From assembly GCA_027310665.1 (NCBI GenBank), contig DAIDAJ010000066.1, positions 1 to 34,687 on the forward strand: a stretch of 34,687 bases of DNA. Direction: 5' to 3'. The notes under the pieces were generated by a model. The model was not told where the DNA came from. It made no database searches and saw only the letters and a program-made list of their open reading frames with translations. The DNA comes from Sideroxydans sp. (GTDB lineage Bacteria > Pseudomonadota > Gammaproteobacteria > Burkholderiales > Gallionellaceae). Shown in pieces: positions 1,139 through 4,878 of this stretch (positions are counted from its first letter, which is position 1; every line of letters starts with the position of its first letter). The translations under genes and the position numbers were made by a program.

Positions 1139-1396
1139 TCAACAAAACAGCGCAAGCTTGCCCGCGCGCGGCAAGGCCTTGATCTCCCGCTCGCGCTTCA
1201 ATGCAGAGGATTTATCGGCACAGGGCTCCTGGTAAACCAAAGTGACCGGCGTGCGGCCGCGCGTGTACTTGGCGCCTTCGCCGGCGTTATGCGCGGCCAG
1301 GCGTTTTTCGAGATCGTTGGTGATGCCGCAGTAGAGAGTTTGGTCGGCGCATTGGAGGAGGTAGCAGGTCCAGGTGGTGGTGTTCTTGAATTTCAT
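1139..1396 (-). CDS. GIY-YIG nuclease-superfamily protein (UPF0213/YhbQ-like)
   Basis: This 85-residue protein consists of one GIY-YIG domain. The first motif is degenerate (WTCYLLQC, with LYCGIT as the YIG half), followed by the DLEKRLAAHN helix with its conserved Arg and the later ALKREREIK segment carrying the metal-binding Glu. The size matches the stand-alone YhbQ/UPF0213 family, whose members are small DNA-cleaving or DNA-binding proteins of uncertain physiological role. It is a single gene: upstream lies a REP-like element, downstream a 250-bp spacer. A real nuclease activity is inferred from family only. Confidence 0.85.
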   Translation of the reverse strand: MKFKNTTTWTCYLLQCADQTLYCGITNDLEKRLAAHNAGEGAKYTRGRTPVTLVYQEPCADKSSALKREREIKALPRAGKLALFC

Positions 1397-1464: not shown

Positions 1465-1495
1465 CCGTTCGTGCTGAGCCTGTCGAAGCATGAAT
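1465..1495 (+). repeat. REP-like hairpin, left outer copy of the RelA/SpoT module
   Basis: This 31-bp unit is the inverse of 3191-3221 with 28 of 31 matches. It folds as TTCGTGCT against AGCATGAA with a GAGCCTGTCG-type loop. One stem pair is swapped (C-G here, G-C in the right copy), so pairing is kept while sequence differs. Confidence 0.75.
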
Positions 1496-1517
1496 GACTT
1501 CAGCTAACATCAACACC

Positions 1518-1770
1518 GCCGGGGGTTGCCCGGCAGCAAGTCACTTTTTCTTGCTTCGCCAAAGAAAAAGTAACCAAAAAGAAGGCGACCCCGGTGCGCC
1601 GCTGCTTCGCAGTTCCCTCCGTTGCTCGACTGGTCAGGCGGCTGCGGAACTCGCGCTTCGCGCTCAGACAGTCCTCGCCGAATACTCCTGACCAGCCTCC
1701 GCTACTCGGCGGCGCACAGGGGAAGGAAAAGCGAAAATCTAAACCACAGTGTAGGCACTTCGTGCCCACA
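1518..1770 (+). repeat. Structured dispersed repeat, copy A
   Basis: About 250 bp that aligns end to end with the reverse complement of 2889-3173. Visible stems, in order, are GCCGGG/CCCGGC (1518-1534), ACTTTTTCTT/AAGAAAAAGT (1543-1571, loop with GCTTCGCC), a CTGGTCAGG-type arm near 1630 pairing with CCTGACCAG near 1690, a GCGC-TTC-GCGC tip (1653-1663), and a terminal hairpin TGTAGGCAC-TTC-GTGCCCACA (1750-1770). Open frames on both strands here look like by-products of the repeat, not genes. It ends 15 bp past the stop of the RelA/SpoT-domain gene. Confidence 0.8.
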
Positions 1771-1784
1771 CCAACCCGCCGACA

Positions 1785-2843
1785 CTAGACAATTCTCTTA
1801 AGCCGTTTAGAACTGCTGTGCCCACTGAGCTTTGCGCATGCATTTTCTATGAGTCGAATAAATTCACGCGCATCAGAAAAATAGTTACGAAAAGCCAGCC
1901 GAACTTCATCGCTGGAATCTGCGCGTACCAGCACAATGTCATTGTGCGGCATTTCCTTTTCTAAAATAAATAGAGCTCTCAATGCTTCAGGAGCATCCCG
2001 GAAGCTTCTAACCTCCAGCGCTCCCTCTCCCGAAAATATAAGAATTGTATTTTTTTTATCCGACACTTCGCTTTTTGCCTGATTAAGACCTCTAAGAGTT
2101 GCAAGAAGCATTAACTCTCTATCAATCGCCAAAAACTCTTCAAGTAACTCCCGGTCGCTCTTTTGCGGAAATGGGCCAGTCAATCCTTCGTGTGCCCTCG
2201 CAAGAATCTCGCTGGCTAGCGCCATTTCATGTTCGTATCTTTTATCACCTTGCTGAAACTTAGGTTGGCTCTCGGTAATAAATCCAACCACTTCTACCGC
2301 AGTAGCCCATGCATGCTGAACAAGTGTTCGGTACTGGATCTCCATGTAGAGACCGACCAAGTCTCGTCCCGTTTCCGAATTTACGTTGTATTCATATACG
2401 TCGTGAATTCCACGATAGCCCGTGGCCTTGGGATGGCTTATATAGTCATATTTTTCTGGATTATTGCGTCGCTTATGCTTGAACCTAGCCTTTTGGAAAG
2501 AGCTCCGAAATTTATTTAACTCTTTAATGCTTCTAAATATCAATCGGCATCCAGCGACATCATCCATCCGCGAGAGCTGCATCCCCGGAAGACGCTTCAG
2601 CTTGTCAAAGATAGTATTTTTTCTCTTATGCCTTTGAGCGACTGTTACGTTCGTACCCTTTGTACGCGTCCGTAATATTGCTTGAAATGTGTTCAGCACA
2701 CTACGGTGAGCAGCACGCCACTCTTCAATAACCGTCAGATCATCTGGTGTGGCCGAACCATTCCGAACATTCTCTCCTGCCCGATTTACTCGCGACTTAG
2801 AACCGCCCGGATAATTTTCTGAACTAACCATAGTATCTTCCAT
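1785..2843 (-). CDS. Stand-alone RelA/SpoT-domain (nucleotide pyrophosphokinase-like) protein
   Basis: The 352-residue protein carries a RelA/SpoT synthetase fold without the HD hydrolase, TGS or ACT domains of long RSH enzymes. Conserved elements are visible: the basic ATP-site stretch QRHKRKNTIFDKLKR (70-84), MDDVAGCR with the metal Asp (D94/D95), the G-loop HPKATGYRGIH (137-147, Tyr143 in the place that stacks on the acceptor base), and MEIQYRTLVQHAWA with catalytic Glu168. The family transfers pyrophosphate from ATP to GDP/GTP, or in toxic members to other acceptors such as tRNA ends or adenosine nucleotides. The C-terminal third (about 255-345) is a second, unassigned domain, which recalls fused toxin-antitoxin members such as CapRel. 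The gene is visibly more A+T-rich than its neighbours and sits between inverted repeats, so transfer is likely. Residue 5 (2831) is an alternative start with a better-placed GGAA. The toxic or defence role is inference. Confidence 0.8.
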   Translation of the reverse strand: MEDTMVSSENYPGGSKSRVNRAGENVRNGSATPDDLTVIEEWRAAHRSVLNTFQAILRTRTKGTNVTVAQRHKRKNTIFDKLKRLPGMQLSRMDDVAGCRLIFRSIKELNKFRSSFQKARFKHKRRNNPEKYDYISHPKATGYRGIHDVYEYNVNSETGRDLVGLYMEIQYRTLVQHAWATAVEVVGFITESQPKFQQGDKRYEHEMALASEILARAHEGLTGPFPQKSDRELLEEFLAIDRELMLLATLRGLNQAKSEVSDKKNTILIFSGEGALEVRSFRDAPEALRALFILEKEMPHNDIVLVRADSSDEVRLAFRNYFSDAREFIRLIENACAKLSGHSSSKRLKRIV

Positions 2844-2853
2844 GCCGATCTCA

Positions 2854-2868
2854 GGTACTCAATGTACC
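2854..2868. promoter_or_regulatory. Dyad upstream of the RelA/SpoT-domain gene
   Basis: GGTAC-N5-GTACC lies 11-25 bp upstream of the first ATG of the leftward gene. It could be an operator; only 45 bp separate the gene from repeat copy B, so the promoter probably overlaps the repeat. Confidence 0.35.
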
Positions 2869-2888
2869 GGAGTCATGTTGTTTTGACT

Positions 2889-3173
2889 ATTGCGGGCAAC
2901 GTGTTGCCCGCAATACGGTTTTGATCTTCGCTTTTCTCTCCCCTGAGCGCCGCCTCGATATTTCGTCAACAAGCGGAGGTTTAGGCGAGCACTGTCTGAG
3001 CTCCGCAGTGGGGCACGGTTTGTGTGCCCCGCCAGGGCGAGTTGCGCAGCCCCGCTTGTTGGTGAAATATCGAGGGAACCCCGCAGGGGCGGCAAACCGG
3101 GGTCGCCTTTTCTTTGGTTACTTTCTTTTTGGCGAAGCAAAAGAAAGTGACTTGCCGCCGGGCAAGCCCCGGC
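2889..3173 (-). repeat. Structured dispersed repeat, copy B (inverted)
   Basis: The reverse complement of this stretch aligns over its whole length with 1518-1770. Stems: ATTGCGGGCAAC/GTTGCCCGCAAT (2889-2914, perfect 12 bp), a 24-bp arm at 2953-2976 pairing with 3052-3075 in 22 of 24 positions, a GGGGCAC/GTGCCCC tip (3010-3030), ACTTTCTTTT/AAAAGAAAGT (3120-3148), and GCCGGG/CCCGGC (3157-3173). Several stems differ from copy A by paired changes. Its tail faces the RelA/SpoT-domain gene, as does that of copy A. Confidence 0.8.
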
Positions 3174-3190
3174 AAACTATGCGTCCAGCC

Positions 3191-3221
3191 ATTCATGGTT
3201 CGACAAGCTCACCACGAACGG
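3191..3221 (-). repeat. REP-like hairpin, right outer copy of the RelA/SpoT module
   Basis: Inverse of 1465-1495 (28 of 31). The stem is TTCGTGGT/ACCATGAA on the minus strand. It lies 17 bp outside repeat copy B, as the left copy lies 22 bp outside copy A. Confidence 0.75.
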
Positions 3222-3336: not shown

Positions 3337-4878
3337 TCAGCCAAGTCGCTGGTTATCCCCCGGTGGGAGAGGGGATGTGCGGCGATGCATCAACCATGCA
3401 GCGAGCAACATCACCCCAACCAACACCAACACCGCCCCATTCCCCCAAACCACATACGGCGTCCTCCCCTCATACCCCCGCACCTCCGCCGTCAGCACCC
3501 CTTCCTCATGCTGCGGCAACATGGCCTGTATGCGCCCGTCCGCGCCGATCACCGAGGTGACCCCGGTATTGGTCGCCCGCAACATCATCCTCCCCGTTTC
3601 CAGCGCGCGCATCTGCGACAGCTGGTTGTGCTGCATCGCGGCATACGAGTCGCCGTACCAGGCGTCGTTGGTGACGTTCACCAGCAATGTGGCTTGCGGC
3701 AACGCGCGGATGATCTCTTCGCCAAAGGCGTCTTCGTAGCAGATGTTCACCGCCACCTTCTGCCCGGCGACATTGAGCGGCGTTTGTGTCGCGCCGCCGC
3801 TGGTGAGGTCGCCCATCGGGATGTCCAGCACTTCGTTGATGAACCAGCCGAACACGCTGCGCAGCGGGATGAACTCGCCGAAGGGCACGAGATGGTCCTT
3901 GCGGTAATGCTGGCTCTCGGCGCTGCCGAGGGAATAGACGCTGTTGTAATACTTGCCGTCCTCTTTCTCGAACGCGCCGATGAGAATGTCGCCCCCGTTG
4001 TTCCGGACATGATCGCTCAGGATGGCGTGGTAGCTTTCCGGCACGTCCCGGCGCAACAGCGGTAACGCCGTCTCGGGCATGACGATCAATCGCGCATCGC
4101 TGCTTTGCGCCAATCGGCGATAGGTTTCCAGCGTGTTGGTCAGCGCGTCTTCGGCGAATTTGGCATCCTGGGCGATGTTGCCTTGCAGGAGGCCCACCTT
4201 GAGCGGTTCGCCGCCGGGTCGCGTCCATTCGATGCTGCGCAACGCCGCCCCGCCTGCCCACAGCAAGACCAGCACGGCAAGGGCGATCTTGCCCGGCCGA
4301 CCCAGGCGCACATTCCACAGGACCAGCAACATCGCCGCGCTCGCCGCCACGGCGAGCGACACGCCATATACGCCGAACAACACCGCGTAGCCTGCGAGCG
4401 GGCTGGCGGGCACCTGCGAATAGCCGACGGAAAGCCAGGGGAAACCGGTGAACAGCAAACCGCGCAACCATTCGGTGAACGTCCAGATCGCCGGCATCAC
4501 CAGCACTATCCACGCATCGTTCGCCCTGATTACCACGAAGGGTTTCAGTTTCGCCTGCAGATACCCTGCCAGCGCGGGCAGGGCCGCATTCACCGCTGCA
4601 AACAAGGCCGTCGCCGTTGCCGCGAGGATGGGATGCATGTAGCCATATTCGTGCAGCGCGACATAGATCCAGCTGATGCCGGTGCAGAACAACCCCATGC
4701 CGAAGATGAAACCCAGCCACGCCGCCTGCGCCGGACGCTCAGCCCGGCTCCACAGCCAGAACAGCACGGAGAGCGCGAGCACGGGCAGCGGGAAGATGTC
4801 GAACGGTGCAAATCCGAATACGGCGATGGCACCTGCAAGGAAGGCTTTCGGGTAGGGCGAGGCGATGAGTCTTTTCAC
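3337..4878 (-). CDS. lnt: Apolipoprotein N-acyltransferase
   Basis: Lnt acylates the N-terminal cysteine of diacylglyceryl-lipoproteins in the inner membrane, the last step of lipoprotein maturation. The 513-residue protein has an N-terminal block of about six membrane segments (about 10-215), then a nitrilase-type periplasmic domain, then a last membrane segment (about 478-497). The Glu-Lys-Cys triad is present: E269 in MPETALP, K327 in YRKDHLVPFGE and C380 in NICYEDAFG. Length fits the family (E. coli 512). In many proteobacteria lnt directly follows ybeZ-ybeY-corC; here it is about 3.3 kb away, with four genes between. The last dozen or so residues (SPLPPGDNQRLG) lie in a GC-rich stretch that looks repeat-derived, so the original C-terminus may have been altered. 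It is divergent from the cNMP-binding gene (79 bp apart). Confidence 0.95.
   Translation of the reverse strand: MKRLIASPYPKAFLAGAIAVFGFAPFDIFPLPVLALSVLFWLWSRAERPAQAAWLGFIFGMGLFCTGISWIYVALHEYGYMHPILAATATALFAAVNAALPALAGYLQAKLKPFVVIRANDAWIVLVMPAIWTFTEWLRGLLFTGFPWLSVGYSQVPASPLAGYAVLFGVYGVSLAVAASAAMLLVLWNVRLGRPGKIALAVLVLLWAGGAALRSIEWTRPGGEPLKVGLLQGNIAQDAKFAEDALTNTLETYRRLAQSSDARLIVMPETALPLLRRDVPESYHAILSDHVRNNGGDILIGAFEKEDGKYYNSVYSLGSAESQHYRKDHLVPFGEFIPLRSVFGWFINEVLDIPMGDLTSGGATQTPLNVAGQKVAVNICYEDAFGEEIIRALPQATLLVNVTNDAWYGDSYAAMQHNQLSQMRALETGRMMLRATNTGVTSVIGADGRIQAMLPQHEEGVLTAEVRGYEGRTPYVVWGNGAVLVLVGVMLLAAWLMHRRTSPLPPGDNQRLG

Follow-up and report, generated by a model that had tools for sequence, protein, structure and literature searches.

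A mirrored hairpin frame around a CapRel-like gene in Sideroxydans sp., a probable docking site for exchangeable single genes

The window analysed here is a 34,687-nucleotide stretch of Sideroxydans sp., a member of the Gallionellaceae (assembly GCA_027310665.1, contig DAIDAJ010000066.1, positions 1 to 34,687). Between its GIY-YIG gene and its lnt gene lies a single A+T-rich gene of the RelA/SpoT type, enclosed by two long repeats, or arms, which face each other and are built of conserved hairpins. We call a pair of such arms a frame and the gene between them its cargo. Comparison of related genomes shows inward pairing of the arms, frames at orthologous positions, cargo that varies at one site and is shared across sites, empty frames, rearrangement breakpoints at frames and a conserved box on the 5′ side of the cargo. 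We suggest, from sequence comparison, that the module is probably an occupied docking frame for exchangeable single genes, which are most likely swapped by homologous recombination.

The module between lnt and the GIY-YIG gene

An earlier note on this DNA had described an inverted-repeat module around one A+T-rich RelA/SpoT gene. The module is real. The best inverted match between its left and right sides scores 132 bits, while 100 shuffles reach at most 32.8, and the gene has the RelA_SpoT domain PF04607. The arms match each other in inverted orientation at 1518-1619/3072-3173 (102 nt, 85%) and at 1708-1757/2905-2954 (80%). The GC content is about 0.46 between the arms versus 0.56 to 0.61 in the flanks. 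The earlier note took the two arms for the same repeat in inverted copies; they are instead distinct subtypes of one repeat, 72% identical, and not copies of each other. An origin of the paired arms by duplication or gene conversion was considered for the frames in general and rejected, the identity within pairs being 0.808 against 0.795 ± 0.011 in shuffled pairs, with 667 of 5000 shuffles as high.

The mirror had also been described as having two layers. The outer pair of repetitive extragenic palindromic (REP)-like units and the arms are indeed there, but the layers are more than two: a further hairpin lies on the inner side of each arm, the left one being imperfect, and further layers lie outside. 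A second REP-like copy is seen at 1416-1438, beyond the left one. The segment 3231-3247, just beyond the right REP-like palindrome, is a remnant of a second arm terminus, and genome G018 holds a fuller form of it (L118, between the second and third arms). Other frames have further layers of this kind, including some from other palindromic repeat families.

Table 1. Positions of the module's parts and of the two flanking genes in the window
Feature	Position	Strand	Basis
Left outer REP-like palindrome	1465-1499	+	Inverted pair with 3187-3221, 35 nt, 89%
Left arm, subtype A, hairpin chain	1512-1745	+	nhmmer arm profile 2-249, 245 bits
Imperfect inner hairpin on the gene's 3′ side, GGCACTTCGTGCC type	1751-1769	+	Read from sequence
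Cargo gene, CapRel-like RelA/SpoT-type fused toxin-antitoxin, 352 aa	1785-2843	-	PF04607; PADLOC PDC-S33
Promoter-like conserved box, 28 bp, 17 bp ahead of the gene start	2861-2888	-	25/28 to AGTCAAAACAATTCGACTCCGGTACATT
Inner hairpin on the gene's 5′ side, 12-pair stem, terminator-like outward	2888-2915	+	Sequence and terminator scan
Right arm, subtype B, hairpin chain	2917-3175	-	nhmmer arm profile 6-249, 201 bits
Right outer REP-like palindrome	3187-3221	-	Inverted pair with 1465-1499
GIY-YIG gene, flanking site marker	1139-1396	-	PF01541
lnt gene, flanking site marker	3337-4878	-	TIGR00546

The cargo gene of the window is similar to CapRel. It is assigned by PADLOC to the candidate class PDC-S33 with E 3e-104, and its nearest solved structure by sequence is the CapRel structure 7ZTB (E 2e-23). 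The predicted model has a mean predicted local distance difference test score (pLDDT) of 79.5. Its best Foldseek matches are 7ZTB and 9ERV, over about 348 columns, with a template modelling score of 0.63, a root-mean-square deviation of 10.4 and E 2.7e-18 for 7ZTB. R71, R100 and Y143 are invariant in a 16-row alignment and, as counted on the alignment, correspond to R79, R116 and Y155 of 7ZTB. In CapRel, R79 and R116 coordinate ATP and Y155 is the G-loop tyrosine (PMC9712102). The likeness to CapRel (7ZTB, 9ERV) comprises the fold alignment, the equivalents of these three residues and the fusion into one open reading frame. The difference is that the sequence alignment covers only residues 15-204 and leaves the C-terminal half, parts of which are at low pLDDT, without alignment, and that the PADLOC class is that of a candidate. 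A full CapRel is thus only the probable reading, since the C-terminal half of the model is partly of low confidence. By analogy, the gene is probably an abortive-infection immunity gene, in which the N-terminal synthetase would be released once the C-terminal part senses a phage protein.

Homologues of the cargo gene are found in records titled as several phyla (the homologue alignment A2 leaves out L152, L159 and L163, and the arm scan leaves out L163). Among the homologue loci scanned (L146-L162 and L017), full or partial arms are present at L146, L151 and L160 and a fragment at L153; at L155 and L148 nothing more than short inverted matches, of 25 and 29 bp, is seen. No arm stands beside the scanned homologues from outside the host family.

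Fixed sites and changing cargo in the genus

Matches to the left arm are present in 31 of the 34 genus genomes (BLAST, E <= 1e-4). The unbiased count of pairs is that of the three closed genomes, G004, G023 and G028, the other frames coming mostly from match lists sorted by score. With both arms as queries the closed genomes give 37 arms, or 38 with one truncated partner at L190. Of these, 32 form 16 pairs and 6 are solitary. All 16 pairs face inward, and neither an outward nor a tandem pair is seen in these three genomes. The arms are 496-1270 bp apart in the ten pairs that hold cargo and 70-87 bp apart in the six empty ones. The duplicate L064 (of L118) and matches under the score cut-offs were left out. 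The reading frame of each frame was picked mechanically, and at L198 a wrong small one was taken.

Solitary arms look like relics of pairs, since at site S7 (L184, L188, L189, L069) a solitary arm in three species stands where a fourth has an empty pair. Carriage on plasmids was tried as an explanation and rejected, the left arm having no match in 72,556 plasmid records (distant mode). Carriage on phages is unsupported; one IMG/VR viral contig has the arm core pattern (L252:10267-10290).

Sites were defined by masking the frames and comparing what flanks them, and at least eleven sites have both flanks common to two or more genomes. S1 is the lnt/GIY-YIG site of the window. A match to lnt is found in 31 of the 34 genomes, six of which have a frame at S1, all six sharing both flanks, and 25 of which have none. 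Where the frame is missing, the GIY-YIG reading frame begins at or just past the lnt stop in 22 of the 25, and other sequence is present in three (our own reading). The six frames hold the CapRel-like gene in G000 and G005 and four other genes in G018, G025, G004 and G011. On a 30-row lnt tree the frame changes state four times, and the state differs between close relatives such as G004 and G028.

The same holds for other sites. At S2 six genomes share both flanks, and their frames hold four different cargos (G000, G004, G013, G026) or none (G017, G032). Four more genomes share one flank, owing to contig ends or rearrangement, and add four further cargos, among them the CapRel-like gene in G025; one of the four, in G016, is a 771-bp stretch whose reading frames do not exceed 64 aa. 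S3, read as ubiX-mutY, holds a different cargo in each of the three genomes that share both its flanks; two more genomes share one flank. With both flanks shared, S6 has three cargos in three genomes and S8 two in two. At S5 a gene is present in one genome, a 205-bp gap in another and an empty frame in a third. Thus different families of whole-gene cargo lie between the same conserved flanks at S1, S2, S3, S6 and S8, and the CapRel-like gene occurs at three sites, S1, S2 and S6. The earlier note had proposed searching related genomes for what lies between the inverted pairs, and this search revealed other cargo in the same frame as well as empty frames; single repeats strewn at random, with no presence or absence of the whole block, are not what was found.

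The 34 cargo proteins fall into 28 families (BLASTP, E 1e-5). Their genes have a mean GC content of 0.445 versus 0.579 in the flanks, and it is lower than in the flanks in 33 of 33 frames. The Pfam cut-off is reached by 8 of 30 cargo proteins, with CoiA_N, RES, HEPN_RiboL-PSP, BRCT, DUF4238, DUF2441, HEPN_AbiU2 and DUF3800, and PADLOC gave one weak match among 20 other cargo proteins. The defence flavour of the cargo is therefore partial.

In many filled frames the inner side of one arm carries a hairpin and then a 28-bp box with the consensus AGTCAAAACAATTCGACTCCGGTACATT. Of the 34 cargo frames, 16 carry a box of at least 20/28 on the 5′ side of their main gene; a 3′-side copy occurs in L052 alone, which has the box on both sides. 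Shuffles score at most 18/28. At up to 3 mismatches there are 39 copies in 22 of the 34 genus genomes, and the reversed control gives no match. The part TAGTCA-17-TACATT may be interpreted as promoter-like, with partial hexamers.

Proposed exchange of the cargo and its alternatives

In two frames of G023, L196 and L193, a flank of S2 stands opposite a flank of S12. L196 lies between the left flanks of both sites, with homology that ends about 30 bp short of the frame at either side. L193 lies between the other two flanks, with homology beginning about 60 and 110 bp off the frame. Rearrangement by recombination between two frames would be the simplest reading of this pattern. The arms of S1 keep their side despite differing cargo: arms of the same side are 0.764 identical, arms of opposite sides 0.645 and arms of other sites 0.696. 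S4, S5 and S6 lean the same way.

The history of single cargo genes varies. Between G000 and G005 the CapRel-like gene has a fourfold-site identity of 0.63 versus 0.65 for lnt, with 93% of amino acids identical. The gene is thus old in these two genomes and under purifying selection, and its recent transfer between them is not supported by the fourfold sites. Another cargo, common to G000 and G023, is closer than lnt (0.93 versus 0.77).

Hence, we suggest the following course of events. The two inward arms of a frame would flag one constant intergenic position, which in the window is the gap separating lnt from the GIY-YIG gene. The single A+T-rich accessory gene at this site would be replaced, gained or lost over time, and the frame and the flanking genes would stay. 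Incoming DNA with a frame of its own may recombine with the resident frame through the arms or the flanks in a RecA-type reaction, with the gene being swapped. The box presumably drives transcription of the docked gene, and the arms may stop outward transcription and so insulate the neighbours.

Several observations weigh against this proposal. Exchange among strains of a single species was not seen, in a search set of one genome per species, and the comparisons run between species. Genomes with the frame at S1 show only mild clustering on the lnt tree, 26 of 500 shuffles needing as few changes, and S4 is empty in all seven paired cases. In the draft-genome loci L059, L076 and L118 an extra arm of the same orientation stands beside the pair. 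At S2 (0.679 versus 0.656 opposite) and S3 (0.785 versus 0.767) the arms are barely more alike by side, and therefore the arms change too. Other pairs of the CapRel-like gene are mixed relative to lnt, that of G000-G013 being closer (0.67 versus 0.55) and that of G000-G025 further (0.47 versus 0.59). As for the box, a good one is missing in 18 of the 34 cargo frames, its fit to the sigma-70 hexamers is partial, and a consensus scan listed no promoter in the module. An arm stands upstream of the box at 17 of the 30 box loci examined and is missing at the other 13.

The earlier note had offered two readings of the module, a composite non-autonomous mobile unit or a hot spot where repeats trap cargo. 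In the first, the whole block would move as a unit by means of a transposase acting in trans, for instance a Y1 enzyme (REP-associated tyrosine transposase, RAYT) that recognises the hairpins. Such a composite transposon would account for the fact that, of 31 genomes, 6 have the block at the lnt site and 25 lack it, for one gene occurring at three sites, for the further right arm that adjoins the complete frame of G018 and for the inverted symmetry, which in L048 and L052, judged by eye, continues beyond the arms across the REP-like unit. However, frames hold orthologous sites as the cargo changes, and the REP-like unit is not obligatory, being absent beside one or both arms in several other frames. 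No transposase is found in the window module, as the earlier note had said, nor in a Pfam scan of 30 cargo proteins, and inspection of the frames by eye revealed no target duplication. Y1 matches (E <= 1e-5) occur in 18 of the 34 genomes, but closed G004 has 10 arms and none of them. At 20 Y1 loci read with about 1.5 kb on each side, out of more matches, neither an arm nor the core of the 28-bp box stands beside the Y1 gene, and one locus has a REP-like match. We consider a transposon of this kind unlikely. The hot-spot reading is well supported, given same-site frames with other cargo, empty frames and 25 of 31 lnt-bearing relatives without the block.

A further alternative, improbable in our view, is an integron-like exchange, in which a putative recombinase would cut at the inner ends of the frame, at the box on the 5′ side and the hairpin on the 3′ side, so that genes are swapped precisely. 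This would agree with the sequences as judged by eye, in which the conserved stretch ends together with the box and gives way to the cargo. It would also agree with a site beside an ankyrin-type gene (our own reading), where the box bounds two different cargos with no 5′ arm and with an arm on the 3′ side (L284/L285; L296), and with the narrow range of the box, which is almost never seen beyond the genus and one sister genus (of 300 order genomes 4 have it, all of the same family). On the other hand, the frames read, to which the search was confined, contain no recognisable recombinase. No integrase-type Pfam domain is present among the 30 cargo proteins, the genomes not having been searched for integron integrases, and no tandem cassette array is seen in the frames read. 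The many cargo frames that lack a good box also speak against such cutting, as do free-standing boxes ahead of unrelated genes, one of them (L302) with ferredoxin and FAD domains. A promoter or operator fits the box better than a recombination site, since free boxes precede unrelated genes.

The box precedes a similar gene in G011 and G025 with no arm upstream (L302:1562-3028 and L329), hinting at a regulon promoter. Another free-standing box lies ahead of a candidate defence gene, which is ParB-like and resembles PD-Lambda-5_A (L303:1579-2685).

The fold of the arms was analysed on an alignment of 68 arms. Double compensatory changes occur in 14 of 34 predicted pairs. For the pairs common to both strand predictions, split by subtype, there are 122 alternative Watson-Crick cells versus 28 mismatched ones, a cell counting sequences and not events. 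In all three arm subtypes folding is better for the outward than for the inward strand. This preference partly stems from the way the structure was derived, so that a strand-specific RNA is no more than possible. The window module has 6 terminator-like sites versus 2.1 ± 1.6 in shuffles; five of the six point outward, two of them overlapping (our own reading). Hairpins similar to the imperfect one at 1751-1769 are found at many inner ends on the 3′ side of the cargo. Outward folding and terminator-like sites suit an insulating role, and an RNA is not thereby proven. A known RNA family was looked for and rejected, as the module has no Rfam match above the gathering score and a permissive scan gave matches at chance level. 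The last alternative is that no exchange system exists: the arms would be ordinary repeats acting as terminators in both directions or as insulators, and would gather, neutrally or under selection, around foreign genes that reached tolerant intergenic spots along unconnected routes. It would fit these folding and terminator data and the empty paired elements of other families, but it is very improbable, as it leaves unexplained the empty inward pairs where relatives hold cargo between the same two flanks (S2, S5), the strict inward pairing and the rearrangement breakpoints at two frames.

Reach beyond the genus and known systems

Arms are widespread in the order, being found in 76 of 250 genomes and 40 of 120 genera (at most three candidates were scored per genome), and across the phylum they are found in 16 of 299 genomes, the source genome included. 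From the top of the match lists 39 loci outside the genus were taken, 29 with inward pairs and ten with single arms. The gap is 55-201 bp in 28 of these pairs and 323 bp (GC 0.64) in one, and no clear A+T-rich cargo gene stands between the arms of the 29 pairs read. The same-family locus L308 is an empty pair. A full frame of the sister genus contains a box and a reading frame of 197 aa. The empty element is thus common, and clear filled frames are seen in this family only. It is possible, and we propose it tentatively, that a new single-gene exchange system has arisen here, in which a widespread empty palindromic element of the order became the fixed frames of one family, with a promoter-like box, single accessory or immunity genes swapped between species and no recombinase encoded by the frame.

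The nearest concept to the frames is the minimal mobile element (MME) of Neisseria, where different whole-gene cassettes likewise lie between the same two conserved genes (PMC3898611). That text describes incorporation of the cassettes solely by homologous recombination, beside which only the arm-side identities and the G023 breakpoints can be set here, and variation among strains of one species, whereas the frames are compared between species. Unlike MMEs, the frames add a dedicated, repeated and mirrored hairpin frame at no fewer than eleven sites, mostly with one gene, often with the box on its 5′ side, and with empty forms.

Integron cassettes resemble the frames in that one gene, in many cases of unknown kind, is docked downstream of a shared element. 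The frames, however, were read without an integrase or an attC-type tandem array, usually hold one gene and have mirrored arms on both sides. Mobile insertion cassettes and composite miniature inverted-repeat transposable elements also resemble them, carrying a passenger gene between inverted repeats with no transposase, but the frames keep orthologous sites, end in multi-hairpin arms and have no target duplication by eye. A further likeness involves S. lithotrophicus, which we take to be one of the Gallionellaceae. This species is listed as CGTC-positive in the accessible part of a study of the GTAG and CGTC repeat superfamilies, which are paired palindromic intergenic repeats, the CGTC class having no dedicated transposase (PMC3733652). 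Those repeats are short single stem-loops, with CGTC stems of 8-9 bp, and an exchangeable gene inside the pair is not described in that part of the text (PMC3733652). REP doublets forming hairpins (REPINs) and bacterial interspersed mosaic elements (BIMEs) consist of intergenic repeats that form hairpins, occur as inverted pairs and show compensatory changes (PMC3116915). The inverted hairpin pair as a unit, on which REPIN/RAYT systems are based, recurs in the frames (16 of 16 inward). In contrast to REPINs and BIMEs with RAYT, the arms are about 215-260 bp long and not short REPs, they enclose genes, and 0 of 20 Y1 loci read have an arm. A literature search by arm sequence and description found nothing that describes the frame, most subscription journals lying outside its coverage.

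How single accessory genes, immunity genes included, turn over at fixed chromosomal spots with no visible recombinase is largely an open question. The frames are recognisable by sequence, occur many times per genome, hold mostly unknown genes and, at one site, may be filled in some genomes and empty in others. Since they are so easily recognised and numerous, with both forms at one site, exchange becomes directly testable, and the frames offer a search handle for new defence-like genes.

Outside the genus, cargo may exist at two loci, since reading frames there sit within or between arms. At L264:3141-4355 a transposase-like frame, of IS481 type by eye, splits an arm. At L265:3509-4285 a secreted-looking 258-aa frame, possibly cargo, has a partial right arm on one side and a full one on the other. 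In the sister genus an arm, whose partner does not lie within the stretch, and a box stand upstream of an AAA ATPase gene similar to the AriA/OLD-type defence ATPases (L327:1561-3027).

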